In this document: piece after piece, positions 28,500 to 42,510 of the stretch
Layout of the letters: each line of letters begins with the position of its first letter
Position numbering within the stretch: the first letter of the stretch is position 1
Assembly (NCBI GenBank): GCA_958295785.1
Contig: OY282377.1
Coordinates: 634,394-698,393 of the forward strand
DNA from: an uncultured Latescibacterota bacterium
GTDB lineage: Bacteria > Latescibacterota > UBA2968
Reading direction: 5' to 3'
Length of the DNA stretch: 64,000 nt
Program-made: the position numbers and the translations under genes
Notes under the pieces: model-generated
What the model saw: the letters and a program-made list of their open reading frames with translations, nothing else
Told to the model about the DNA's origin: nothing
The model's database searches: none

Positions 28500-28885
28500 C
28501 TTACTTAAAGCGTTTGGTTCTGCCTCCACGTTTGTTGCCTTTGATGCCTTCGGCGTCAAACGCTCAAATTATTCGCGTTTTCATACTTTTTTTCAACAGC
28601 AAAAAAAAGTAGGCAAAAAATGCCGCTCTCATGCGCCGAGGGACTGGCACAGCGCAAAACGCTTCGTTGCACACACGACATGCGTTGGCCTGCAAGGTGG
28701 GTTGCAAGAGGGAGGTTGGTTGCGAGACAGCCTTGCGCGCTGTGCGCGATGGCTTTATCTGATGGTTTTTTGGGATGGCCTGGTTGCCATGGCTTTTCTG
28801 AATGACTGCGGAACGTCAAGGGAATCATTTGCTGGCAACATAGCGCATCACATGAGGACAACAGCTATTCAATTTGGTATAAGAG
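28500..28885 (+). repeat. Long dispersed repeat, copy A
   Basis: About 385 bp shared with 33105-33400 and 54690-55105. Landmarks: GCGTTTGGTTCTGCC, an A/T-rich hairpin TACTTTTTTT/AAAAAAAAGTA (28584-28611), ATGCCGCTCTCATGCGCCGAG, ACGACATGCGTTGGCCTGC, GCGATGGCTTTATCTGATGG, ACGTCAAGGGAATCATTTGC, and an end CAATTTGGTATA. Short open frames here show no coding signature. It fills the gap between acnA and the zinc-finger gene. Confidence 0.85.
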
Positions 28886-29775: not shown

Positions 29776-30531
29776 TTATTTCGCTTTTGGTTTGGGAAAG
29801 TCGCCGTTGACGAGATGCTCGCCGCGCATTGTGGGTACCGCGTTGCTCCAGTTGAGTTGTGCTGCGTGGGCAACATCGGCGGCAAAGCCTTTGTCGCAGA
29901 GTTCCTGACCGCTGGGGCAGTGGGTCAAAGCGGCGGGTAAGTCGTCGCGCAGGTGGATGAACGCGCCTTCGCATGCCCGCGCTTCGGGTGATTTTTCGCA
30001 GGAGAGATAGGATATGATCGCGCCCGCACCCAGGTCGTCTTCCAAGGCCTGGCGCAATGGCCCGTCTGCATCGGGATCGACATAGCGTTCTCCGCAGGAT
30101 AGGATGGTGATGGCGCGCTCGGTCGTCTGTAAGACGTGGGAAAGCGCGTGGGCAACGGATTGGGCGTTGAGCAACGCGCCCACGAGCAGGATGGGGACGC
30201 GACGGGCATACCGAATGCAGGTCGCGCCATTGGGCGAGGCGAGCACAATGCGCGTGTGGGATTCTATGTTGAGATAGGTGAGTGGGGAAAGCGAGAACCG
30301 GCCTTTTGCGGGGACATCTTCGCGGCCCACGGCGCACTCGGCGTTGACGCGTTGCGCGTAGGTTGCAGTATCTTCGCCTTTGGCGCGGGGGAAGACAACA
30401 CCGCCGTTGTGGATGGCGGTAATGGTTGAAGTGGAGAAGTTGAGGGTATCAACTATGACGAGGACATCGCCGCGTTGTGCGGCTTCTCGCGCACCCCGTT
30501 GGCCTCTGGCGAGTTGGCAGCGATAGGTCAC
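29776..30531 (-). CDS. comB: ComB-like 2-phosphosulfolactate phosphatase
   Basis: A 251-residue ComB-family protein; ComB removes phosphate from 2-phosphosulfolactate in coenzyme M synthesis. Typical segments: VLVIVDTLNFSTSTITAIHNGG, IVLASPNGATC, LLVGALLNAQSVA and ILSCGERY. In bacteria without coenzyme M the family is common and its substrate uncertain. The start is taken as GTG 30531, overlapping the TGA of the upstream oxidoreductase (GTGA), a sign of translational coupling. No comA, comC or comDE is in the window. Confidence 0.8.
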   Translation of the reverse strand: MTYRCQLARGQRGAREAAQRGDVLVIVDTLNFSTSTITAIHNGGVVFPRAKGEDTATYAQRVNAECAVGREDVPAKGRFSLSPLTYLNIESHTRIVLASPNGATCIRYARRVPILLVGALLNAQSVAHALSHVLQTTERAITILSCGERYVDPDADGPLRQALEDDLGAGAIISYLSCEKSPEARACEGAFIHLRDDLPAALTHCPSGQELCDKGFAADVAHAAQLNWSNAVPTMRGEHLVNGDFPKPKAK

Positions 30532-31913
30532 GAGGCGGATTCCCCGAGAAAATGGGCGTCCTGTTTTTTGCGAAGCATCCACAGCGGGTCGTTGTCTTGG
30601 GCACAAATCGCGCTTGCGGTGATCAGGGCGCCCGCGGGAACCTCCCGGCTGAGGGTATTGCCACTCGCCATGTGAAAAGGAAGGGGATTGTCGGGCGCGA
30701 CAGGCAGGGCAGGGCGCATGAGGTATTCGAGATTTGTGCTGTGATCCGTGCCGATTTGGTCGCCGGTTTTGAGGGGTTCTTTTGCGCGGGCCACAATGTC
30801 AAAGCACGGCCGGTAATGGAGCGCGCCCGTGGGCAGGTTTAAGAGGCCCGCGACGAGGGTGGTGATGGGGGTTTCCACGCCGCAGAGGTGATAGGGGCGG
30901 TAGATGAGGGCCGTCGTGCCTTTTGCGTTGGAGATGAGTCCTTTGGTGGTGAGGATGCGCCGCGAGTAATCGTTTTCACACGCAACGACGATAAAGACCC
31001 CGCCGCCGAGGCCGGGTTCATGTGCTCGGCGCAGGCAGGAGACGCAGTCGATGACGCCGCGCTGCGACAAGATGCCGCCGTCTTCTTTGGGGGCGAGCAC
31101 TTCCGGGATTTCAACGGTGCGAACAATGGGGGTATGCAGGGTTTCTACATCGGGCACCAGGCCAGTGGCATTGGCGGCGATAGTCAATTCGGTGATGTCG
31201 TAGCCGGCAATGGCGCCGCGTTGCCCAAGGGTTTTGCGGCGTTGTGCAACATGAGCCGAGGGGCCTTCGGCTGTTTGGGCCGCAAAGATGCGCTGATCTG
31301 GAATGTGGATTTTGCCTTTGGACCAAACAATGGCGTTGGCTTCCGGGTCGTACACGCGATCCGAATCGAGGGATTTGCCGCCGCAGAGGACTTCGAGGCC
31401 CAGGTCGCGCGTCCATTGGACGAGGCCCATGAGCAAGCCGTGCTGGTCCCCATCGACAGCGGTATAGACCAGGCCCGCTTCATCTGCGCGGTGTTTGAGG
31501 ATGGGGCCTACGGTGACGTCGGTTTCTTTGGAGACCATGGCGACGTGTTTGCCGTGTCGGATGGCTTCAAGGCCGTGTTGCGCGCCCGCGCTTGCGATCC
31601 CTGTGGATTCCACGATGACGTCGAGGGGCAAGTCCATCATTTGCATGGCATCGGTGAGAATGACGTGTTTGCCCCGTTCTATGGCTTCGGTGGCCTGTTT
31701 GCCGGTGTCGGCGATGATCGTTTTGTCAGAATCCAACCCCGCGTGATGGTATGCGTTTTGGGCCGCGTCTGGGTTGGTGTCACAGACCACGGGCACGTCG
31801 AGTTGATCGACAACGCGCGATTGCGTGACGAGGGCGGTGGCGTATTGCCCAGTGCCAATGACGCCAACGCGCACGGTGCGGTCAATTTGGGCGAAGAGTT
31901 GGTGGTAGATCAT
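30528..31913 (-). CDS. NAD(P)-dependent oxidoreductase with C-terminal SAF domain
   Basis: A 461-residue protein. The N-terminal Rossmann domain has VGVIGTGQYATALV, the central part resembles homoserine-dehydrogenase-like oxidoreductases (VIVESTGIASAGAQH, VSKETDVTVGP), and the C-terminal region (about 370-450) resembles a SAF domain (GDQIG ... GNTLSREVPAGALITASAI). Members are often annotated as SAF-domain or homoserine dehydrogenase-like proteins; substrate unknown. Start ATG 31913 has AAGGA upstream; the longer frame runs into the IS boundary. It is coupled to the ComB-like gene. IS copy 2 lies 37 bp upstream of its start. Confidence 0.75.
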   Translation of the reverse strand: MIYHQLFAQIDRTVRVGVIGTGQYATALVTQSRVVDQLDVPVVCDTNPDAAQNAYHHAGLDSDKTIIADTGKQATEAIERGKHVILTDAMQMMDLPLDVIVESTGIASAGAQHGLEAIRHGKHVAMVSKETDVTVGPILKHRADEAGLVYTAVDGDQHGLLMGLVQWTRDLGLEVLCGGKSLDSDRVYDPEANAIVWSKGKIHIPDQRIFAAQTAEGPSAHVAQRRKTLGQRGAIAGYDITELTIAANATGLVPDVETLHTPIVRTVEIPEVLAPKEDGGILSQRGVIDCVSCLRRAHEPGLGGGVFIVVACENDYSRRILTTKGLISNAKGTTALIYRPYHLCGVETPITTLVAGLLNLPTGALHYRPCFDIVARAKEPLKTGDQIGTDHSTNLEYLMRPALPVAPDNPLPFHMASGNTLSREVPAGALITASAICAQDNDPLWMLRKKQDAHFLGESAS

Positions 31914-31945
31914 GGTCGGTTCCTTGGAGCGAGTGTTTATACCAA

Positions 31946-33047
31946 TTTGATAGGACTTACGCATGCTGAGTTAAAAAAGGGTGCAATTCCGTAAAATTTA
32001 TCACTTTGAGGAGGTGTCAATGGACCGACCGACGCGTTTGGATTACTGTCAGTATCTGCTTAGCAGTCCCCTCAACGATACCCTGACCCATTTCGCCGAC
32101 CATAGCGAAGGGTTCAGTCATGATATGATCAACCGCTATCTCGCCGGTGATCGTATCCCGCCCCGCTTGGTGTGGGAACACGTCAAAGACCACATCGCGT
32201 TGACGCCTGAAGGCTATGTGATCTTTGATGACACGGTTTTAGACAAGCGACACGCGCGCAAGATCGCGTGAGTGCGCCGTCAATATAGCGGCAACGCCCA
32301 AGGCGTCATCAATGGCATCGGGGTGGTCACATGTGTCTATGTCAATCCGCAACAGGATCGGTTCTGGCTGATTGACTATCGGATTTATGACCCGCAAGGC
32401 GATGGCAAAACCAAATTGGATCATCTCAAGGACATGCTCTCTGGGTTGGTCTATCAGAAGCGCCTTCCTTTTACCGGGGTCTTGATGGACAGTGGGTATG
32501 CGACTAAAACGGTCATGCGACACATAGAGCAGATGCAAAAAACCTATTATTGTCCCCTCAAGACGAACCGGCGCGTGGACGATTCGGCAGGCACAACCCC
32601 CTACCAGCGCGTAGATAGCTTAACTTGGACGAAAGCGCAACGCAAACAAGGCAAGTCAATTAAAATCAGAGGGTTTCCCAAAGACCACAAAGTGAAATTA
32701 TTCCGGGTGGCGTCTGCTGCCAGACGCACGGCGTATGTCGTGACCAACGACCATGCTCAAAACGATTCTTCAGTGGTACAACAGGTGTGTCACCAAAGAT
32801 GGAAAATTGAGCAATTTCACCGCGAAGTCAAACAGGTAACCGGGCTTGAAAAGTGTCAATGCCGGTTGGCACGCATTGTACGAAATCATATTGGGTGTGC
32901 GATGTTCGTTTGGATAAGACTCGAGCAGGTGGCCTATCAAACAGGACAAACCATTTATCAAGTCAAATACCGAGGGCTGGCTGACTTCTTGAGACAACAA
33001 CTCAAAGCACCTCATATTCCAATGGTGATTGCGTAAGTCCTATTTGA
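31946..33047 (+). mobile_element. IS copy 2 with 5-bp target duplication
   Basis: The element spans 31951-33042 (1092 bp). The 13-bp terminal inverted repeats TAGGACTTACGCA/TGCGTAAGTCCTA are perfect, and the target TTTGA is duplicated at 31946-31950 and 33043-33047. The target lay in ATACCAATTTGATTTTTA, a motif seen also at the ends of the long dispersed repeat. The transposase reads fully except for one TGA. Confidence 0.92.
32020..33036 (+). CDS. DDE transposase (IS4/IS701-like) with one in-frame TGA
   Basis: From ATG 32020 (preceded by GAGGAGG) the reading frame runs 83 codons to TGA 32269-32271 and then continues in the same frame from GTG 32272 to 33036. DDE residues: first Asp in FDDTVLDK, second in VLMDSGYA, Glu in WKIEQFHREVKQ. 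Family segments RRQYSGN, DYRIYDPQGDGKTKLDH, FPKDHKVKLFRV and CQCRLARIVRNHIGCAMFVW are all kept. Only the TGA interrupts; related proteins have a Leu-type residue there, by my memory. It could be read through, made as two pieces, or be a dead copy. The other copy has the same TGA. Confidence 0.8.
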
Positions 33048-33471
33048 TTTTTATTTTTCCGTATCCTGCCTCCCATCAGGGAGGAATGAGGAACAAGCGT
33101 TCCGTAGAGATCATGCGTTGCTTGCCTCAAGCGTTTGGTCCTAACTCCTCGTTGGTTGCCTTCGATGCCTTCGGCGACCGACTTTTTTTCACCAGCAAAA
33201 AAAAGTAGGCAAAAAATGCCGCTCTCATGCGCCGAGAGGCTTGCACAGCGCAAAGCGCTTTGCGGGTCGCACGACATGCGTTGGCCTGCGAAGGAAGTTG
33301 CAAGAGGGAGGGGGGTTGCGAGACGGCCTTGCGCGCTGTGCGCGATGGCTTTATCGGATGGTCTTTTGTGATGGCATTTTTGTGATGGCTTCTTTGAATG
33401 ACTGCGTAGCAGTTCATCGAAGTGCGTCGGGTTTTGGAGGTGTTGGGCGGGGACTGACTGCTGACCACTTT
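33048..33471. other. Intergenic region filled by the long repeat (copy B)
   Basis: No gene. It contains copy B of the long repeat (about 33105-33400). After about 33400 the sequence diverges from copies A and C, and the repeat's conserved 3' part is missing. Confidence 0.6.
33105..33400 (+). repeat. Long dispersed repeat, copy B (3'-truncated)
   Basis: Shares with copies A and C the TTGCCTTCGATGCCTTCGG stretch, the A/T hairpin (33181-33207), ATGCCGCTCTCATGCGCCGAG, ACGACATGCGTTGGCCTGCG, CTTGCGCGCTGTGCGCGATG and TTTGAATGACTGCG, then loses similarity before the ACGTCAAGGGAATCATTTGC segment. Confidence 0.82.
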
Positions 33472-34077
33472 TTAAATATTTCCCCGTGCTTTGAGCAGAG
33501 TGATGATTTGCCGTGCGGCCTGTTGCGGCGTGCTGTCAACAGTGTGAATGACGAGTTCGGGGTTTTCAGGCGGTTCGTACGGGTCGGAGATGCCCGTGAA
33601 ATTGGGGATTTCACCGGCGCGTGCTTTTTTGTACAGCCCTTTGGGATCGCGTTTTTCACACACCTTGAGGGGCGTGTTGATGAAGACTTCGATGAAGTCG
33701 TTGTCAGCCATCAATTCGCGCACGGCATCGCGGTCCGTGCGGTAGGGGCTTACAAAGCTGGAGAGGGTGATCATGCCCGCGTCTGCAAAGAGTTTGCCCA
33801 CTTCGCCGATGCGACGGATGTTTTCAGCGCGGTCTTCGGCTGAGAAGCCGAGGTTTTTATTGAGGCCGTGGCGGATGTTGTCGCCGTCGAGCACATACGC
33901 CATGCGCCCGCGTTCAACCAAGGCGTGTTCAACGGTGAATGCGAGGGTGCTTTTGCCCGAACTGGGCAAGCCGGTGAGCCAGATCAGCACGCCCTTTTGT
34001 TTGAGCAGGGCCTCGCGCTGTTCACGCGCCACCTGGCCTTCGTGCCAGACGATATTGGTGGCTTTAACTTCTGCCAA
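33472..34077 (-). CDS. cysC: Adenylyl-sulfate (APS) kinase
   Basis: A 201-residue APS kinase, phosphorylating APS to PAPS with ATP. P-loop GLPSSGKST, LDGDNIRHGLNKNLGFS, AENIRRIGEVGKLFADAG, FVSPYRTDRDAVREL, the lid-like DPKGLYKKARAGEIPNFTGISDPYEPP and IHTVD are all characteristic. No ATG lies at the right place. TTG 34077 is the likely start because AGGAGG sits 6 bases upstream. The gene follows the kinase-SUMF1 gene in the same direction. No ATP sulfurylase is in the window, so PAPS may serve sulfation or assimilation; unknown. Confidence 0.93.
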   Translation of the reverse strand: MAEVKATNIVWHEGQVAREQREALLKQKGVLIWLTGLPSSGKSTLAFTVEHALVERGRMAYVLDGDNIRHGLNKNLGFSAEDRAENIRRIGEVGKLFADAGMITLSSFVSPYRTDRDAVRELMADNDFIEVFINTPLKVCEKRDPKGLYKKARAGEIPNFTGISDPYEPPENPELVIHTVDSTPQQAARQIITLLKARGNI

Positions 34078-34159
34078 GAGATGCCTCCTGTGTTTGTAAG
34101 AAGATGAAAGGGCCTCGAAAGCCCTTAATATCAAAAAATTTCGTTCAGAGCCTGCTCCC

Positions 34160-34298
34160 TCGATTGAGGGGTAAGGGTTGAAAGATTGACAGAATATATG
34201 TATCCCGTTCATCCATGTCAGTCGCAAGATATGGTGGGGCAGAAGCGAGATGCCGTGCCAAGTCGTTTTGCTGATTGCTGACGATGGAGTTGGCCTGC
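34160..34298 (+). repeat. Direct repeat A1 (right-hand partner A2 at 37035-37193)
   Basis: About 139 bp beginning near GATTGAGGGGTAAGGGTTGAA, with TCCCGTTCATCCATGTCAGT in the middle, ending GGAGTTGGCCTGC. It matches 37035-37193 with few differences. The pair brackets the kinase-SUMF1 gene. Confidence 0.9.
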
Positions 34299-34396
34299 GA
34301 AAAAAAAATTGAACACCCCACGCAAGACTTTTCTACAAAATCCACACCCTTTCCCAGTAAAAAAACAAAAGAGGTAAAGAGGTAAAGAGGCAAGAC

Positions 34397-37009
34397 TTAA
34401 AAGCGCCGGGCAACTCGAAAACCATGGTTGTAGCGCCGGAGCCCGGTGGTGCTCCTGTTGCGGTAAGCCGAGCGCAGATTCCTGGGTTCGTTGACCCAAG
34501 AACCGCCACGCAACACGCGAGAAGAGCAATCGCCACGCTCCCACGCTGAACCGTCACTAGGCATGCCCGGGCGCCTCGACGGGCGCCTCGACATTGCCCA
34601 CACGGGCCGCTCCCACGCTGAACCGTCACCAGGCGCGCCTAAATAGCTCGTATTCCAACAATCCTGCGTCCATTCCCATACATTCCCGTGAACATCGTAC
34701 AATCCAAACGCATTTGACGAAAATGAACCCACAGGCACGGTCTTCTTGCGATACATCCCTTTCCTGCCAGAACCATACGTGTAATTTCCATGGTAGTTCG
34801 CTTGAGACGTCGAGATCGTCTCACCAAAGTGAAAAGGGGTACTCGTTCCTGCACGCGCCACATACTCCCATTCCGATTCGCTCAACAAACGATAGGATTG
34901 ACCCGTCTTGGAAGACAACCAAGACACATAAGACCAGGCATCATCCCAACTTACATTGATCACAGGACGACGACCGCGACCCCAACCCATATCACTTGGA
35001 CGATACCCGTTGCACCCACCCGACGCCACGCACGCATCCCATTCGGCAAACGTTACTTCATACACTCCCACGGCCAACCGATAACCGATCTCAACACGAT
35101 GCTGAGGCCCTTCATCATTATTACGACCCTCCTCACTTGATGGCGAACCCATCATAAATGAACCTGTTGGCACTTCTACCATCACGGGGCACTCCGAGCA
35201 GTCCTTGAATGTCTCGCCTGCTCGCGCTACGCCTGCTCGCGCTATAAGTGTTGCATTTGCCAAACGCTTTTCCAAATCATCCAACACAGACGCATCGGCA
35301 TCAACCCCACGAATGCGAGACACATAATCAGACGCAGAGCTTAAATTTTCACCCGACAAGGCGGCCTCAAACTGCGACACATACTCATCAACCTGACGCT
35401 TGATCTCGGCCTGACGCTTGATCTCGGCTTGACGCGCTGCCTCTTCGGCCTGACGCTTGATCTTGGCCTGACGCGCTGCCTCTTGTGCTTGCCCCAACCG
35501 ACGCTCCAATTCGACTAACACGGGCGCATCCGAATCCACCAGACGAATACGAGACACATAATCAGATGCAGAGCTTAAATCTCCACCCGCCAAGGCGGCC
35601 TTAAACTGAGACACATACTCATCAATCTGACGCCTGATCTTGGCCTGACGCGCTACCTCTTGTGCTTGCCCCAACCGACGCTCCAATTCGACTAACACGG
35701 GCGCATCCGAATCCACCAGACGAATACGAGACACATAAGCAGACGCCGAATACAAATCTCCCCGAGACAACGCATCTTCAAACATATCCGCATAACGAGA
35801 GATTTGTCTATCTATTGCCTTGACTTCGGCCCGACGGTCTATCTCTCCGATGACCCAATACCCAACCAAGCCGACCACTACAAGCACCACAAACGCACCC
35901 AACGCCACCCACACCCCCTTGCCACGTGCCTTCGCTTTCTGACGTTCTTCTCTCTCTTTCTGTTCTCTCTCTTTCTGTTCTCTCTCTTTCTGTTCTCTCT
36001 CTTTCTGTTCTCTCTCTTTCTGTTCTCTCTCTTTCTGTTCTCTCTCTTTCTGTTCTCTCTCTTTCTGTTCTCTCTCTTTCTGTTCTCTCTCTTTCTGTTC
36101 TCTCTCTTTCTGTTCTCTCTCTTTCTGACGTTCTTCTTCTATCTCGGCACGCCACGCATAGATGGTTTGCGGACGATCCTCCTTATTCACTTGGAGCGCG
36201 TGATCTATCGCCGACAGAAAGCCCCGGCTCGCTTGATCCTCGTTGCATCGCTCGGCAATGGGAACCAGTTCATCATTTTCTCTCCTATCTATGGCTTCAT
36301 CGGGCACCGCGCCCGTCAAGGCGTGATAGCATACCGCACCCAACGCATAGAGATCCGTCCAAGGCCCTTGATCCCCACGGGTCGAATACTGCTCAACAGG
36401 CGCGTAGCCCGGCGTCATGATGCGTGTAAAGGCACGGGTCCTGGCCCCTATCGCCTGACGCGCCGCGCCAAAGTCTATCAACACAGGCAAACCATCCTCG
36501 GCGCGAATGATGATGTTGGCCGGCTTGATGTCTCGATGAAGGAATTTTGCCCCATGCACGACTTTCAACCCATCTAGCAACGGAAATAGAATCTCCTTGA
36601 GTTCGCCTTCAGTCAGCACCCCTTTGCGGTTGAGAAAGTCCAACAAGGTCTCGCCCTCGGCGTATTCCATCACGATATACGCCGTGCCATGCGCTTGAAA
36701 AAAGTGTTGCACGCGCACGATGTTCGGATGCTGAAACCGCGCCAAAATTCGGGCTTCGTCGATCAAGCGATCCAATCCCCACTGAAAATTCTCCGTAGCC
36801 TGAGACGACTGCGGCACCACAGACAGGTCGCTTTTGCGGGTCGCCAAGTCAGTCGGAAAATACTCTTTGATCGCCACGGGAATATCCAACGCGAGATTCC
36901 GGCCGAGATAGGTCATCCCAAACCCGCCGTGCCCGAGAACGCGCTGAAACTCAAAATCCCCAATGCGCGTGCCCTGCGGCAAGGTCAATTTGTGTTGTGC
37001 ATCGTTCAT
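34397..37009 (-). CDS. Ser/Thr protein kinase with transmembrane helix and SUMF1-type C-terminal domain
   Basis: An 870-residue protein. Kinase domain, residues 20-285: glycine loop LGHGGFGMTY, Lys48 in VAIK, HRD at 158-160, DFG at 179-181, MTPGYAPVEQY. Residues 296-357 are KEREQ repeats (a likely charged helix). A single membrane helix lies at about 365-387, followed by three similar segments of about 65 residues with YVSRIR-VDSDA-VLVELERRL, then a SUMF1/FGE-like domain (about 625-868; VPTGSFMMGSPSSEEG, NVWEWTQD, RVLRGGSW, HGFRVAR). The cysteine pair of true formylglycine-generating enzymes is not present after GGSW. Start ATG 37009 has AAGGAG upstream. Likely a membrane sensor kinase with a ligand-type outer domain. 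Confidence 0.92.
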   Translation of the reverse strand: MNDAQHKLTLPQGTRIGDFEFQRVLGHGGFGMTYLGRNLALDIPVAIKEYFPTDLATRKSDLSVVPQSSQATENFQWGLDRLIDEARILARFQHPNIVRVQHFFQAHGTAYIVMEYAEGETLLDFLNRKGVLTEGELKEILFPLLDGLKVVHGAKFLHRDIKPANIIIRAEDGLPVLIDFGAARQAIGARTRAFTRIMTPGYAPVEQYSTRGDQGPWTDLYALGAVCYHALTGAVPDEAIDRRENDELVPIAERCNEDQASRGFLSAIDHALQVNKEDRPQTIYAWRAEIEEERQKEREQKEREQKEREQKEREQKEREQKEREQKEREQKEREQKEREQKEREQKEREQKEREERQKAKARGKGVWVALGAFVVLVVVGLVGYWVIGEIDRRAEVKAIDRQISRYADMFEDALSRGDLYSASAYVSRIRLVDSDAPVLVELERRLGQAQEVARQAKIRRQIDEYVSQFKAALAGGDLSSASDYVSRIRLVDSDAPVLVELERRLGQAQEAARQAKIKRQAEEAARQAEIKRQAEIKRQVDEYVSQFEAALSGENLSSASDYVSRIRGVDADASVLDDLEKRLANATLIARAGVARAGETFKDCSECPVMVEVPTGSFMMGSPSSEEGRNNDEGPQHRVEIGYRLAVGVYEVTFAEWDACVASGGCNGYRPSDMGWGRGRRPVINVSWDDAWSYVSWLSSKTGQSYRLLSESEWEYVARAGTSTPFHFGETISTSQANYHGNYTYGSGRKGMYRKKTVPVGSFSSNAFGLYDVHGNVWEWTQDCWNTSYLGAPGDGSAWERPVWAMSRRPSRRPGMPSDGSAWERGDCSSRVLRGGSWVNEPRNLRSAYRNRSTTGLRRYNHGFRVARRF
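34536..34629 (-). repeat. In-frame 72-bp duplication inside SUMF1 domain
   Basis: The 22-base block coding DGSAWER occurs at 34536 and 34608 (72 bp apart, 24 codons). Between them lies GGGCGCCTCGAC repeated twice in tandem. The result is an inserted segment with SRRPSRRPG. Related domains normally have one DGSAWERGDCSSRV. Confidence 0.8.
35951..36126 (-). repeat. 15-bp tandem repeat coding KEREQ
   Basis: Eleven perfect copies of the 15-bp unit read as TCTCTCTTTCTGTTC on the + strand, with partial units at the ends, code for (KEREQ)11 between kinase and membrane helix. Copy number changes by slippage would keep the frame. Confidence 0.95.
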
Positions 37010-37034
37010 CGCGTCTCCTTTGGTACCAAGCCCG

Positions 37035-37193
37035 TCCCCTTGATTATAGGGGTAAGGGTTGAAAGATTGACAGAATATATGTATCCCGTTCATCCATGTC
37101 AGTCGCAAAATATGGTGGGGCAGAAGCGAGATGCCGTGCCGAGTGGTTTTGCTGATTGCTGATTGCTGACCACTGACGATGGAGTTGGCCTGC
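37035..37193 (+). repeat. Direct repeat A2
   Basis: Same orientation as A1 (34160-34298). It contains a small local expansion, TGATTGCTGATTGCTGACCAC, that A1 lacks. It lies just upstream of the kinase-SUMF1 gene start. Confidence 0.9.
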
Positions 37194-37235
37194 ATAAAAA
37201 AAATCCCGTGCCTGTTTTTCATTTAGGCCGTGGAT

Positions 37236-37272
37236 AAAAGCACTGCCGATTCCATGATCAGCAGTGCTTTTT
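37236..37272 (-). terminator. Rho-independent terminator after ABC ATPase gene
   Basis: AAAAGCACTGC (37236-37246) pairs perfectly with GCAGTGCTTTT (37261-37271) around a 14-base loop. It has T- and A-tracts on both strands and may act in both directions. Confidence 0.75.
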
Positions 37273-37298
37273 GTTTCTCCATTGCGCGTTTGGTCTGT

Positions 37299-38072
37299 TC
37301 ATTCAGCCGTGGGATCGAATCCCTCGATGCGCCCTTCTTGAATCTCGATCTCGTCGCGGCGTCTGATTTGCTCAACTTGCCCATCGCGCAAATCGACCAC
37401 GCGATCAGACACCCCCAGCATCTTGTGATCGTGCGTATTGGTCACAATGGTCACACCGCTTTCGCCCTGCATCTTGAGCAACAATTCGATGATTTCCTGC
37501 CCGGTTTTCAAATCCAAGTTTCCGGTTGGCTCATCGGCCAAAATCAAATCTGGGTCATTGGACATGGCCCGGGCGATAGCCACGCGCTGTTGCTGACCGC
37601 CCGACAATTCGTAGGGCTTGTGATGCAGGCGGTCGCCGAGGCCCACCAGCGACAATTTGTGCGCGGCCTTTTCCTCGTATTCCCTGCGCGACATGCCCGA
37701 AAACACCATGGGCAAAGCCACATTTTCGAGCGCGGTCATGACGGGAATCAAGTTGAACGACTGAAAAATATACCCCACACTGTGGCAGCGCAAATACGCA
37801 ATTTGCCCTTGGCTCATGTCGCCCATGTTCGCGCCGTTGACCAAGACCGTGCCCTTGGTGGGCGTGTCCAATGCACCGACCATGTTGAACATCGTGGTTT
37901 TGCCCGATCCCGAAGGCCCCATGATGGACAAATACTCCCCGCGAATCACATTGAGGTTTACGCCGCGCAGGGCATGCACTTCCTGATCGCCCATCCGATA
38001 GGTCTTCCACACCTCTTGGACATTGATAATATAATCCTCATTGCCATTGCCTGCTTGTTGTGCTTGAGCCAT
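37299..38072 (-). CDS. ABC transporter ATP-binding protein, LolD/MacB-like
   Basis: A 257-residue ABC ATPase. Walker A GPSGSGKTT (52-60), Q-loop FQSFNLIPVMTALENV, signature ELSGGQQQRVAIARAM, Walker B LILADEPTGNLDLKTG and a switch His in VTNTHDHKM. The FQSFNLIP and DEPTGNLD wording is typical of the LolD/FtsE/MacB (MJ0796) group, which works with FtsX-like permeases. No permease is next to it. Start ATG 38072 follows CAGGAG; the six-codon-longer frame has less support. It might serve the FtsX-like protein at 57714, but that is speculation. Confidence 0.92.
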   Translation of the reverse strand: MAQAQQAGNGNEDYIINVQEVWKTYRMGDQEVHALRGVNLNVIRGEYLSIMGPSGSGKTTMFNMVGALDTPTKGTVLVNGANMGDMSQGQIAYLRCHSVGYIFQSFNLIPVMTALENVALPMVFSGMSRREYEEKAAHKLSLVGLGDRLHHKPYELSGGQQQRVAIARAMSNDPDLILADEPTGNLDLKTGQEIIELLLKMQGESGVTIVTNTHDHKMLGVSDRVVDLRDGQVEQIRRRDEIEIQEGRIEGFDPTAE

Positions 38073-38233
38073 GGTGTTCTCCTGTTGCAATAAATCCGCG
38101 ATTGAAAACCCATATTAGCGAAAACCCTTGGGCGTGTCAAGCGCAAATAAAATTTTGCGTGATTCCCAATGCGGCTTCCCCTATATTCTACCCTCATCCA
38201 ACCCGGACAACCCCCAACAGAAAGGACGACATC

Positions 38234-39058
38234 GTGAAACTCGCAGTGTGCAATGAGTTTTTTGAAGGCTGGACAATTGAGCGGGTCTTTGACTACGCAG
38301 CGGAAATCGGCTGTGACGGCGTGGAAATCGCGCCCTTTACATTGGCGCCGAGCGCAACGGACATTTCGACCAAACAGCGCGGCGACATTCGCAAAGCCGC
38401 AGAAAGAGCCGGGGTTGAAATCGTCGGCCTACACTGGCTGCTCGCAAGCCCGCCGGGGCTGTATCTCACGCATCCGGATGCAACCGTCCGCAGCAAAACA
38501 GAGGCGTACATTAAAGCGTTGATCAATTTCTGTGGCGACTTGGGCGGCAGGGTTATGATCCACGGGTCACCTGCACAGCGCAATATCCAAAAAGGTTGGG
38601 ATCGCGCCGCGTGCTGGCAGTATGCCGTGGATATTTTCGCCAACTGCACCCGTGAAATGGAAAATAACAATGTCACCTATTGCATTGAAGCACTGACGAG
38701 CAGAGAGACCAATATTTTGACCTCCATTTCCGAAGCCCTCAAAATGGTCGCCGATGTAGGCCATCCCCATTTCCAGACGATGGTGGATACCAAAGCCGCC
38801 GCCGCCGAAAGCAAGCCCCATGTGGATGTGATTGCCGAAGCGGGCAAGGCCATGCGCCATGTACACGTCAATGATCCCAATTTGCGCGGGCCGGGATTTG
38901 GCGATTTGCAATTCGCTTCCATTCTCCGCGCCCTCAAAGATCGCCACTACGACGGGTATGTATCTGTCGAAGTTTTCAACTTCAAACCGGATCCGCAAAC
39001 CATTGCCGCCCGCAGCATCGGCTATCTCAAAGGCATTCTCGAGGGATTGGAAAACTAA
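38234..39058 (+). CDS. Sugar phosphate isomerase/epimerase (TIM barrel)
   Basis: A 274-residue xylose-isomerase-like TIM-barrel protein (AP_endonuc_2 type). Segments GCDGVEIAPF, VGLHWLL, GGRVMIHGSPAQRN, VTYCIEAL and MRHVHVNDPNLRGPGFGD carry the usual metal-binding Glu, His and Asp positions; YDGYVSVEVF closes the barrel. The substrate is probably a keto-sugar or sugar acid. GTG 38234 is chosen with AGAAAGGA upstream; the open frame before it covers the promoter region. Its stop overlaps the stop of the convergent epimerase gene by 4 bp. Confidence 0.85.
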   Translation: MKLAVCNEFFEGWTIERVFDYAAEIGCDGVEIAPFTLAPSATDISTKQRGDIRKAAERAGVEIVGLHWLLASPPGLYLTHPDATVRSKTEAYIKALINFCGDLGGRVMIHGSPAQRNIQKGWDRAACWQYAVDIFANCTREMENNNVTYCIEALTSRETNILTSISEALKMVADVGHPHFQTMVDTKAAAAESKPHVDVIAEAGKAMRHVHVNDPNLRGPGFGDLQFASILRALKDRHYDGYVSVEVFNFKPDPQTIAARSIGYLKGILEGLEN

Positions 39059-39900
39059 AAATTCTTTGACTTGTGCGTGTAAATGCGCTCGGCCACAAAT
39101 CCTATTTCTTTTTTGATCCGCCGCACGTCATAAACGCTGTCGTATTCATGCCCTGGCTGTTCAAAATGCGACAAATCCACATCATTGCCCCACCAATGGC
39201 GCAAAATTTTTGCCACGGGCACTGCGGTCCAGGCCTTGGGACCGGCCGCATTCATGATACGCGCCCCCGGCTTGTGCGGTGCGGTTGCCGCCATGGCAAA
39301 TGCCCGAACCGCGTCGGGCAAGTCCATGATGGTCAAACTGCCCAACCCCCACTGGCGCGGCGGCGAGAGGGTTCGCAACGGCGGCAACCCGGCATGCGGC
39401 ACGGACGACAGGCGCAAATTGATCACATCAATGGCGTCATTTTGCCGTGCGTAGTACTTTGTGATCTCCTCCATCAAATATTTCGACAGCCCATAGCCAT
39501 CGCGGTCCAAACACGGGTGTTCGTCGGGAATGGGCAACACTTGCGGGCGAAAGCCCGGGTTTTGCATCCCCACTGCGGCTATCGAACTCGCCATCACAAA
39601 TTTTTTGCATCCGCGATCCATCAAATAGCGCGTCAAACAGCGCGTGCCCTCCACGTTGACCATTACCCCATCGCGTTCCGAACAACCGCCCGTAACCGCG
39701 GCCAAGTGAACCACCACATCAATCGCCTCGGCATTGAGGTGTTGCAAATCCTCAAAAGACCCAAATTCGCCGCGCACCCAAGGCAAATCCAATTGCGGAT
39801 TTTTTCGGCTCATACATATCACCCGGTGGCTTTTCGCCATCGAAACTGCCAACGCCCGACCGATAAAACCACTCGCTCCGGTAATCAAAATTGTGCTCAC
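39055..39900 (-). CDS. NAD-dependent epimerase/dehydratase (extended SDR)
   Basis: A 281-residue extended SDR enzyme. NAD-binding GASGFIGRALA at the N-terminus, VVHLAAVTGG, SSIAAVG and the catalytic YxxxK as YGLSKYLMEE. It starts at GTG 39900 with GAGGAGG a few bases upstream. The family acts on nucleotide sugars or related carbonyl compounds; the substrate cannot be read. It lies downstream of the amidohydrolase with a palindromic repeat between them. Confidence 0.85.
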   Translation of the reverse strand: MSTILITGASGFIGRALAVSMAKSHRVICMSRKNPQLDLPWVRGEFGSFEDLQHLNAEAIDVVVHLAAVTGGCSERDGVMVNVEGTRCLTRYLMDRGCKKFVMASSIAAVGMQNPGFRPQVLPIPDEHPCLDRDGYGLSKYLMEEITKYYARQNDAIDVINLRLSSVPHAGLPPLRTLSPPRQWGLGSLTIMDLPDAVRAFAMAATAPHKPGARIMNAAGPKAWTAVPVAKILRHWWGNDVDLSHFEQPGHEYDSVYDVRRIKKEIGFVAERIYTHKSKNF

Positions 39901-39920
39901 AATCCCTCCTCGTATTTTCA

Positions 39921-39942
39921 GGCGGGCACGGGGGCACCGCCG
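39921..39942. repeat. Dispersed palindromic repeat, copy 5 (truncated)
   Basis: GGCGGGCACGGGGGCACCGC: the left half of the family consensus; the CCCCTACG end is lost. Confidence 0.6.
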
Positions 39943-40015
39943 AGATAACGTTTGTACCCCTTCGTGTCGTGGACTGCTATCGCAGTTGTATCCCGCCCGT
40001 GGATCACATCGTGGG

Positions 40016-41252
40016 TTAATCGCTGAAAACGCCACTTGCGCCGCGCAAAACATCTGTTACGACCTCGCCCGCTTTCATCACCATTTTCACATGGCGCAAA
40101 CACGCGATATCTTCGAGTGGATTGCCCGATAGGGCTATCGCGTCTGCGAACATTCCCGCGTGCAGATGCCCGACGCGATCCGCCATGCACAGCATCTCGG
40201 CGGTGTTGGTGGTCACGGCCTTGAGCGCGTCTGTTTCCGATACGCCCAAGCCAACGAGTGCGCTCGCTTCGCGCCAGAGTGTTGCATGCGTGCTATCGGT
40301 TCCCAAACACACCTTGACGCCTGCGCGAACCGCTTCGGGCAAATGCGTCGCGGTCAATTCGCGTGCGCGTTCAACCCGCTCGCGCCACCAATCCCACGTC
40401 CAAGTTGGAAAGGACGCAAACCCGACTTCATCGTCAAAAAACAGTTGCAAATTTGGATCGCTCAAATACGCGCCCGATTTTGCGAACAGCGCGACATCCT
40501 CATCGGTCAACAAATTGGCGTGCTCAATGCTGTCGATCCCGGCTTCTAGTGCCCAGCGCAGGGCCGGCCCGCCTATCGCATGCGCGGCCACAGGGATGCC
40601 CAAGTCGTGCGATGCGGCAATGGCCGCCTCAATTTCCCGTTTCGAGTACGCGGGCACATCCGTCAGGTCGCCTCGAATATAATCTTCGTACGCATCGCCT
40701 TGCCGCACATTGGTAACAAACAACTTCGTCCAATCCGCGCCTCGGGCAAAATTTTCCCGGATTTTCAACGCCAATTCTTCTGCCCCATCCGCGGGAAAAC
40801 ACAAAAAAGGCGCGGTTCCGTGGCTCGGTCTCAATGCCCGCACGCACACCTGCAACCTCGGCCCCACGGCTTCGCCCCGGTCAATCGCCCCTTGAAAAGC
40901 CTTTTCAATGCCCGGGCGATCCCCCAAAGTCCGCATGGTCGTCACACCCGATGCCAGATCGCTCCGCAAATTCATCGCACCGCGCAACACAGCCGTTGTC
41001 GCGTCCAGATCGAAATGCGCGCTTAGGGGCATCTCGAACCGATTGTTGATCGTGATATGCACATGGGAATCGATCAGCGCGGGCATCACGGTATAGGCCG
41101 AGCAATCCACCACCTCGGCGCCTGCGGGCACGGCTATGTCTGCCCCAACATCCGAGACGCGCCCCTCGTTGACGACCACCATCCCCTGCGGTATGGGCGC
41201 GCGGTCAGGATGGATGATCAACAGTTTGGATTTAATTACTTTTGGCATCATA
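40016..41252 (-). CDS. Metal-dependent amidohydrolase
   Basis: A 411-residue amidohydrolase-superfamily protein (imidazolonepropionase/prolidase-like branch). Metal-binding DSHVHI near residue 63, VAAHAIGG, SIEHANLL and LGTDSTHA follow the usual order of the (beta/alpha)8 barrel, and the flanking sandwich domain is visible at both ends (VVNEGRVSDVGADIAVPAGAEVVDC; DAIALSGNPLEDI). No signal peptide, so cytoplasmic. The target is a cyclic amide, peptide or similar C-N bond; not determinable. The start is the ATG pair at 41249-41252; no strong ribosome binding site. It is divergent from the luciferase-like gene. Confidence 0.87.
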
Positions 41253-41316
41253 GCGAATTGTTTTGTATCATAAGAGCGACCAACGCCGATCCGCCGCGTT
41301 GAACAGGAGATACAGC

Positions 41317-42510
41317 ATGCAATTTGGCATCTTTTACGAACATCAAATTCCCCGCCCATGGGCAGCAGGAGACGAGCATCGGCTTTTTAAGGACGCGCTC
41401 GAACAAGTCGAAATTGCCGATAGCATTGGCATTGAATACGTTTGGGAAGTCGAGCACCACTTCTTGGAAGAATATTCCCACTCCTCGGCGCCCGAAGTGT
41501 TTCTCGCGGCGTGTAGCCAACGCTCGAAAAATATTCGCTTGGGACACGGCATTGTGCTCATGCCCCCCAATTACAACCATCCCGCCCGCGTGGCCGAACG
41601 CATTGCAACCCTGGATTTGATCAGCGACGGGCGCGTGGAATGGGGCACGGGCGAATCGGCCTCGCGTGTGGAACTCGAAGGATTCAATGTGCCGCCCGCG
41701 CAAAAAAGAGCCATGTGGGCAGAAACCGTGCGAGAGACCGCCAAAATGCTCGTCTCAGAACCGTACCCGGGGTATCGGGGCGCGTTTTTTTCCATGCCCG
41801 AACGCAACATCTTGCCCAAACCCCTGCAAAAGCCCCACCCGCCCCTGTGGGTCGCCTGTTCCAGCCGCGAGAGCATTCGCTGGGCCGGCAAACACGGCAT
41901 TGGCGCGCTTACCTTTGCCTTTATCGAACCGGAAGAAGCCAAATACTGGGTTGATGAATACTATACCGCATTTGAGACCGCATGCGAACCCCTCGGTCAA
42001 GCCGTCAACCCCACCATTGCAATGGTCGCCGGGTTTATGTGTCACGAAAATGGGGACATCGCACGCGCACGCGGTCTGGAAGGCTTTCAATTTTTTAGCT
42101 ATGCCCTGTCCCACTATTACAAGCACGGCACCCATGTGCCGGGTGCTTATGACTTATGGGCAGATTTCCAGCAAAACAAACCCGAACCCAAAGAAAGCGC
42201 GCGCTGCATTGGCACGCCGGACGAGATTCGCGCCCATCTCGAAAACATGGAAAAAATCGGAATCGATCAGGTCGTCTTTCTCCAGCAAGCGGGCAACAAC
42301 AAACACGATCACATCTGCGAATCGCTCGCGTGTTTCGCCCAAAATGTCTTGCCGGATTTCAAAGCGCGACACGAAAAATACGCCGCAGAGAAAGCCGAGC
42401 GTCTCGGCCCGGCCATTGAAAGAGCGCATGCCAAAATTCCACCCATTGACACCCCCCGATTTGCACCCTTAGCAGCCTATCCGGTTTTGAAATCATCCGA
42501 AGAAGAATAA
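41317..42510 (+). CDS. Luciferase-like (LLM class) flavin-dependent monooxygenase
   Basis: A 397-residue bacterial-luciferase-family protein. Typical blocks: MQFGIFYEHQIPRPW, YVWEVEHHFLEEYSHSSAP, RLGHGIVLMPPNYNHPARVAERIATLD, RVEWGTGES and PHPPLWVACSS. These match class C flavoprotein monooxygenases, which use reduced flavin from a partner reductase (none seen here). ATG 41317 follows ACAGGAGA. Substrate unknown. Confidence 0.88.
   Translation: MQFGIFYEHQIPRPWAAGDEHRLFKDALEQVEIADSIGIEYVWEVEHHFLEEYSHSSAPEVFLAACSQRSKNIRLGHGIVLMPPNYNHPARVAERIATLDLISDGRVEWGTGESASRVELEGFNVPPAQKRAMWAETVRETAKMLVSEPYPGYRGAFFSMPERNILPKPLQKPHPPLWVACSSRESIRWAGKHGIGALTFAFIEPEEAKYWVDEYYTAFETACEPLGQAVNPTIAMVAGFMCHENGDIARARGLEGFQFFSYALSHYYKHGTHVPGAYDLWADFQQNKPEPKESARCIGTPDEIRAHLENMEKIGIDQVVFLQQAGNNKHDHICESLACFAQNVLPDFKARHEKYAAEKAERLGPAIERAHAKIPPIDTPRFAPLAAYPVLKSSEEE

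Follow-up and report, generated by a model that had tools for sequence, protein, structure and literature searches.

We analysed a 64,000-nucleotide stretch of DNA (the window) from an uncultured Latescibacterota bacterium, corresponding to positions 634394–698393 of C1, the single contig of its genome (G000; 5,660,449 bases). The window contains a minus-strand gene for an 870-residue kinase-SUMF1 protein (34397–37009), bracketed by two direct repeats, A1 and A2, which the preliminary description had read as the borders of an exchangeable cassette. The gene also carries a variable region (VR) of 113 bp (34407–34519, minus strand) matching the template repeat (TR) of a diversity-generating retroelement (DGR) on the same contig. 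As judged from sequence comparison, the gene is almost certainly a target of this chromosomal DGR.

The listed open reading frame (ORF) of 941 residues begins at 37222 and crosses A2; translation more likely starts from the ATG at 37009, which lies behind AAAGGAG and gives 870 residues. The protein comprises, all on the minus strand, a Ser/Thr kinase domain (36167–36952; Pfam Pkinase, E 1e-38) with HRDIKP, DFG and VAIKE present, a charged tandem array of twelve exact 15-bp units (35948–36127), one likely membrane helix (35861–35917; residues 365–383, mean Kyte–Doolittle value 2.57), a linker and a carboxy-terminal FGE-sulfatase/C-type-lectin-like domain (34406–35191; Pfam FGE-sulfatase, E 7e-49). 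The array, a coding repeat of the KEREQ type, likely forms a coiled coil of variable length. Sequence matches in the PDB include PvdO, FGE, ToxD and Treponema denticola variable protein 1 (2y3c), the last being the DGR protein TvpA, and the catalytic cysteines of the formylglycine-generating enzyme seem to be missing from the carboxy-terminal region.

The protein ending VLRGGSW...GFRVARRF resembles that of DGR target proteins and prompted a search of the genome for reverse transcriptases (RTs). A single RVT_1 match was obtained in the whole genome at E values up to 0.001 (C1:4216108–4216746, E 6e-17), situated amid FGE-sulfatase matches, of which the genome holds 17. Beside the RT lies an Avd gene (NCBIfam DivGenRetAVD NF033474, E 1e-30, score 106 bits, cut-off 80; Pfam bAvd), coding for an accessory protein that is frequent in DGRs but not universal. 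The TR, an adenine-rich stretch of 113 bp (C1:4216982–4217094), is found directly behind the RT stop codon. Six kinase-SUMF1 genes in the neighbourhood make up the cluster and carry seven variable regions between them, two of these in a single gene. A search with the TR at E below 1e-10, in which three short rows at E 0.4–0.74 were dropped as chance, yielded ten copies besides the TR itself, namely the seven of the cluster, the window gene and two diverged copies. The natural target of the DGR of Bordetella phage BPP-1 is local; the window VR lies 3.55 Mb from the DGR locus along the contig or, should the chromosome be circular, ~2.1 Mb in the opposite direction.

With 88% identity, the window VR is the closest to the TR of these ten copies. 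All 14 of its mismatches fall at TR adenines, for which the chance would be ~3e-9 if sites were random, and none of the 80 non-adenine sites is changed. Likewise, the eight well-preserved ungapped copies showed 140 of 143 mismatches at adenines, a total that leaves out the two decayed copies at 784 kb and 5532 kb, and the window copy had the fewest mismatches among them. At the protein level, the window VR departs from the translated template at nine residues. The rest of the window domain is 87–89% identical to all seven cluster domains (synonymous divergence, dS, 0.22–0.30), and the probability of zero changes in 80 sites at 12% divergence is near 4e-5. This absence of non-adenine changes, set against the 87–89% domain identity, argues that the VR was overwritten from the template after the genes split. 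We consider it quite probable that this rewriting took place in trans from the distant template, and the gene was likely rewritten at its present location. Compared with the cluster genes, the DNA is 82–87% identical in the kinase part and 85–89% in the FGE part, and the linker is common with g6661 alone. When the seven cluster genes were checked for the hydrophobic stretch, g6661 gave a comparable value (2.06), the other six peaking at no more than 1.29.

The TR-like copies at C1:784554–784672 (76%) and C1:5532580–5532700 (72%) reside in short or broken FGE genes and look like decayed remote targets; the former was out of register in the ungapped comparison, and its counts were dropped, and the latter has 20 of its 33 mismatches at adenines. 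Furthermore, two 32-bp repeats, 72 bp apart, stand just before the window VR (34536–34639) and match the position of ~23 extra residues in the window protein, which are missing from the ten related domains aligned.

The stop codon is followed by a conserved 3' tail (34301–34396, minus strand), including TTTACCTCTTTACCTC (34371–34386), that is common to the DGR cluster genes. Over these ~96 bases the identity to the six cluster tails ranges from 73/81 to 91/95 aligned bases, and the similarity ends at a poly-T run where A1 begins. Just behind the window VR (34371–34386, minus strand) we observed the tandem motif TTTACCTC-TTTAC(A/C)TC, with both TTTACCTC units kept. We examined 29 downstream flanks for this motif, those of the window gene and the six cluster genes, of 19 gene ends at other DGR loci, of two remote genes in a Binatia chromosome and of one Latescibacteria relative. 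Twenty of them contain it with at most 3 mismatches; the nine that do not are one remote Binatia gene and eight L083 ends, the L083 set being all tblastn matches, several of which may not be VRs. In shuffled flanks (200 shuffles each), 3 mismatches were reached in 2 of 29 cases and never fewer, for a motif picked from these same flanks after viewing them. Tandem sequences resembling the motif also stand behind VRs at L079, L080, L081, L082, L084, L085, L087, L088 and L102, covering several phyla; outside the window's own genome they are often followed by a CCAGGGGGC...GCCCCCTGG hairpin, which was not found in that genome. Perfect stems of at least 8 occur in 10 of the 29 flanks, none of these from the own genome. 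In the window gene and the six cluster genes, no perfect stem of at least 6 with a loop of 3–6 was detected within 80 nt behind the VR, and the window tail has a fold z of +0.74. None of the papers listed (8 of 14) by a literature word search for these motifs contains the DGR term.

The ~140-bp direct repeats of the preliminary description are real, and its coordinates were right within ~11 bp. Gapped alignment stretches them to 34149–34309 for A1 (161 bp) and 37029–37204 for A2 (176 bp), both on the minus strand and in the same orientation; they contain families D3 (115 nt, 97%) and D6 (42 nt, 88%). Of the 161 aligned columns 151 are identical and 10 are mismatched; the alignment also has one gap of 14 bases and one of a single base, and the best 115 bp differ by 3 substitutions. 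With both copies masked, the next-best match to A1 in the window is only 14 bp long, and the similarity of A1 and A2 is therefore far beyond chance. Both lie outside likely coding regions, and each directly precedes a gene on the minus strand: from the end of A2 it is 19 bp to the ATG of the kinase-SUMF1 gene, and from the end of A1 71 bp to the TTG (34077) of cysC, the adenylyl-sulfate kinase gene (33472–34077, minus strand). Along the coding strand, the order is the ATP-binding cassette (ABC) transporter ATPase gene (37299–38090, minus strand), A2, the kinase-SUMF1 gene, its 3' tail, A1 and cysC. The same promoter-like site, CTGACA-17-TATATT, is present on the minus strand of both copies, pointing at the kinase gene in A2 (37074–37102; 10/12 matches) and at cysC in A1 (34193–34221). 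An Rfam search of 30000–42000 for structured RNA gave no match at the gathering score.

Searching the own genome with A gave three matches, the two full copies and one diverged 63-bp piece (81%) at C1:554452, and a 28-base core of A, with up to 3 mismatches allowed, was found at no place besides A1 and A2. No match to A was found in any of 59 other genomes, none to A2 in a plasmid collection (blastn, E 0.01) and none to an exact 25-base core in viral contigs. The repeat is not scattered at random through the genome and does not form a dispersed family; neither does it bracket a second gene. The left edge of A2, a coding remnant (HGLNEKQARDFF), keeps the 5' context that it has in common with the partial third copy, in which this edge closes a 107-residue ORF. 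Unlike A2 and the third copy, A1 has the tail of the kinase gene as its left edge, fused at the poly-T run. Based on these edges, A2 looks like the older arrangement and A1 like a copy truncated at the gene junction. The 107-residue ORF occurs once in the genome; neither Pfam (E 0.01) nor ten congeners (E 1e-8) gave a match to it.

The neighbourhood of cysC is different in these ten congeners. In all of them one other gene stands ahead of cysC, and genes for a cyclase and a dehydrogenase come after it; the gene ahead of cysC is located at C1:1419823 in the own genome, where no copy of A was found in 19 kb. The ABC gene, the first conserved gene across the junction, lies within ~1.5 kb either side of cysC in none of the ten. 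In congener G008 the two are 2.4 Mb apart (3,256 kb and 813 kb), and each of the nine draft congeners has them on separate contigs. Comparing the gene order of 40 kb with G008 revealed two blocks. Given the differing neighbours of cysC and the distance in G008, the kinase-SUMF1 gene is situated at a lineage-specific junction of two blocks. The A repeats could be a scar of the arrival of the gene, a proposal for and against which we see about equal weight. Most economical would be an insertion accompanied by duplication of the promoter-bearing spacer; the outcome would look alike if a circle had integrated through one crossover at A.

On its other side, cysC adjoins an insertion-sequence (IS)-like element (31939–33054) at the place where 10/10 congeners carry the cyclase gene. 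The element has inverted arms at both ends and a DDE transposase split by an in-frame TGA (31981–32271 and 32272–33036). Translated ORFs at 28556–28861 and 33002–33468 and at L093 2591–3991 are alike by eye and suggest a dispersed intergenic repeat in the own genome. A composite transposon was considered and rejected, as A is too short (161–176 bp) for a transposase gene and the transposase at 32272–33036 lies outside the bracket.

RT matches at E below 1e-20 were present in 4 of 60 genomes, namely the own genome, congener G008 as a fragment, and two more distant genomes; a scan of named genomes revealed 12 RT loci, and related RTs adjoin TR-like repeats in other genomes. The six closest near-full-length relatives derive from Binatia, Nitrospira/Nitrospirales and Rhodospirillaceae assemblies (67–78% by best segment), and partial matches of 85–86% come from one Nitrospira assembly and the Latescibacteria record OX638329. 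Since intact close relatives lie in other phyla and only a fragment was found in the own genus (L022:9854–10981), a horizontal spread of the DGR is suggested. A phage origin of the RT was discarded: 154 phage records match, all below 60% identity, and a peptide-pattern scan of viral contigs gave no relative. The Binatia chromosome OX638375 harbours a DGR of the same clade with four VR copies. In the two local ones, 16/17 and 17/27 mismatches fall at adenines. The remote pair, at distances of 0.18 and 0.48 Mb from the template, shows 18/21 and 16/21 there and belongs to ankyrin-FGE proteins. No repeats bracketing these two remote genes were found in the 16-kb stretches compared.

Taken together, the kinase-SUMF1 gene is very probably best explained as a remote DGR target that is rewritten in trans and retains the A repeats as an arrival scar. 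During copying of the template RNA, bases would be put in at random opposite adenines, and the resulting cDNA would replace the 3' end of the distant kinase gene, guided by the end of the VR and the conserved 3' tail. The nine altered residues of the C-type-lectin-like domain are presumably on its binding face. As the likely membrane helix separates this domain from the kinase, the protein may be a receptor kinase whose sensor can evolve. Gene and tail would have been placed between two chromosome blocks with duplication of the promoter-bearing spacer, leaving one copy ahead of the kinase gene and a second ahead of cysC, and the poly-T run common to both would mark the junction. A more far-reaching version, which we put forward tentatively and regard as rather unlikely, is that rewriting in this cross-phylum DGR clade uses the tandem TTTACCTC-TTTAC(A/C)TC just behind the VR as its portable address, and not a phage-type hairpin. 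A gene with VR and tail could then be moved by megabases and still be rewritten, the A-bracketed kinase being such a gene after its move.

Other explanations have to account for the same observations. If the A copies served as recombination borders for loss, duplication or exchange of the gene, as first proposed, two direct copies with so few substitutions would be expected, as would the lack of a kinase-SUMF1 gene in the flanks examined beside cysC in 10/10 congeners. The bracket indeed stands, and recombination between its two copies could, in principle, remove the gene. A repeat family carrying exchangeable genes is not supported, however, because no second A-bracketed gene was found in the own genome, and no A in the 59 others. 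In addition, the two related remote DGR targets have no brackets in the 16-kb stretches compared, and the adenine-specific changes give the variation of the gene another source; on the sequences compared, this variation is explained by DGR template copying instead of cassette exchange. We therefore regard the cassette as highly improbable. The gene might also have come from another genome with a similar DGR and not from the local cluster. The near-full-length close RT relatives are indeed from other phyla, and nine of ten congeners have no RT match at E 1e-20, the tenth having a fragment. The identity of kinase part, FGE part and g6661 linker to the cluster genes, however, and a VR that equals the local TR at every non-adenine, make this origin improbable.

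Closer to the preferred reading is a gene that was rewritten inside the cluster, then moved, and is no longer rewritten. Such a frozen state would fit the missing BPP-1-type hairpin and the decayed appearance of the remote copies at 784 kb and 5532 kb. The six cluster tails also lack the hairpin, however, and the window gene has retained both TTTACCTC units. Its VR has no non-adenine change and the fewest mismatches of eight copies, yet the A copies have diverged at 10 of 161 columns. We hence consider this course of events unlikely.

Several observations nevertheless weigh against rewriting in trans with an arrival scar. The last rewriting could predate the move of the gene, with no direct sign of current diversification, and the remote Binatia VRs, which have 3 and 5 non-adenine changes, indicate that exact agreement with the template is no rule for remote copies. 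The GC-rich hairpin or cruciform of phage-type DGR target sites (stem of 7–10 bp), which BPP-1 needs, was not found behind the VR. The AlphaFold model of the carboxy-terminal domain is poor (mean predicted local distance difference test, pLDDT, 57.6; below 50 in the VR part) and does not show exposure of the variable residues. The promoter-like sites are matches to a consensus only, and with 7 of them in the region where shuffles gave 3.0 (sd 1.7), the excess is weak. An exact empty site, ABC-A-cysC, was not found among the relatives, and the order of events around A is one that we infer, the compared 40 kb forming two blocks with respect to G008 in any case.

For a remote DGR target, the locus is of interest in several respects. 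Two noncoding repeats pointed the way to a hypervariable receptor-like kinase that would be served by a DGR megabases away. Coverage of the host group is thin in the literature searched, where one listed paper contains both the DGR term and Latescibacter, mentioning DGRs a single time. The naturally separated target lends itself to asking what short DNA suffices for DGR rewriting in trans, and the joining of a target gene to a new promoter-bearing spacer is one possible route for the spread of an evolvable sensor set in a genome.

Several elements of this arrangement have counterparts in known systems. Several target genes were reported for many DGRs by Yan et al. (2019, PMC6642488), and remote targets are missed in fragmented assemblies according to Roux et al. 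(2021, PMC8144416). Bordetella phage BPP-1, as reported by Guo et al. (2011, PMC3240598), requires up to 35 bases behind the VR, including a hairpin. The window system shares with it RT, TR, VR, adenine mutagenesis and a target signal just behind the VR, and differs in having the tandem TTTACCTC motif there instead of a hairpin. In Thiohalocapsa PB-PSB1, trans-rewriting was likewise deduced from exact non-adenine matches and the targets are FGE-type C-type-lectin (CLec) proteins (Dore et al. 2024, PMC10907252). Mobile elements and repeats shape its DGR loci; unlike in the window, its reads show diversification and its repeats are pieces resembling miniature inverted-repeat transposable elements (MITEs) that match IS ends, features not seen in A. 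The closest parallel is found in cyanobacteria, for which the account of remote targets by Vallota-Eastman et al. (2020, PMC7517822) gives 76 in 21 genomes, with kinases as the commonest fusion and transposases suggested for their dispersal. Like the window protein, these proteins combine a Ser/Thr kinase with a carboxy-terminal VR-bearing domain, a CLec domain in the cyanobacteria, and are dispersed from the RT. Compared with that account, the window gene belongs to another phylum, has a VR free of non-adenine changes and is bracketed by direct repeats with no transposase inside. Remote kinase-fused DGR targets are thus already known from cyanobacteria; its bracketing repeats, its host group and the conserved tandem motif are what make the present case less usual.

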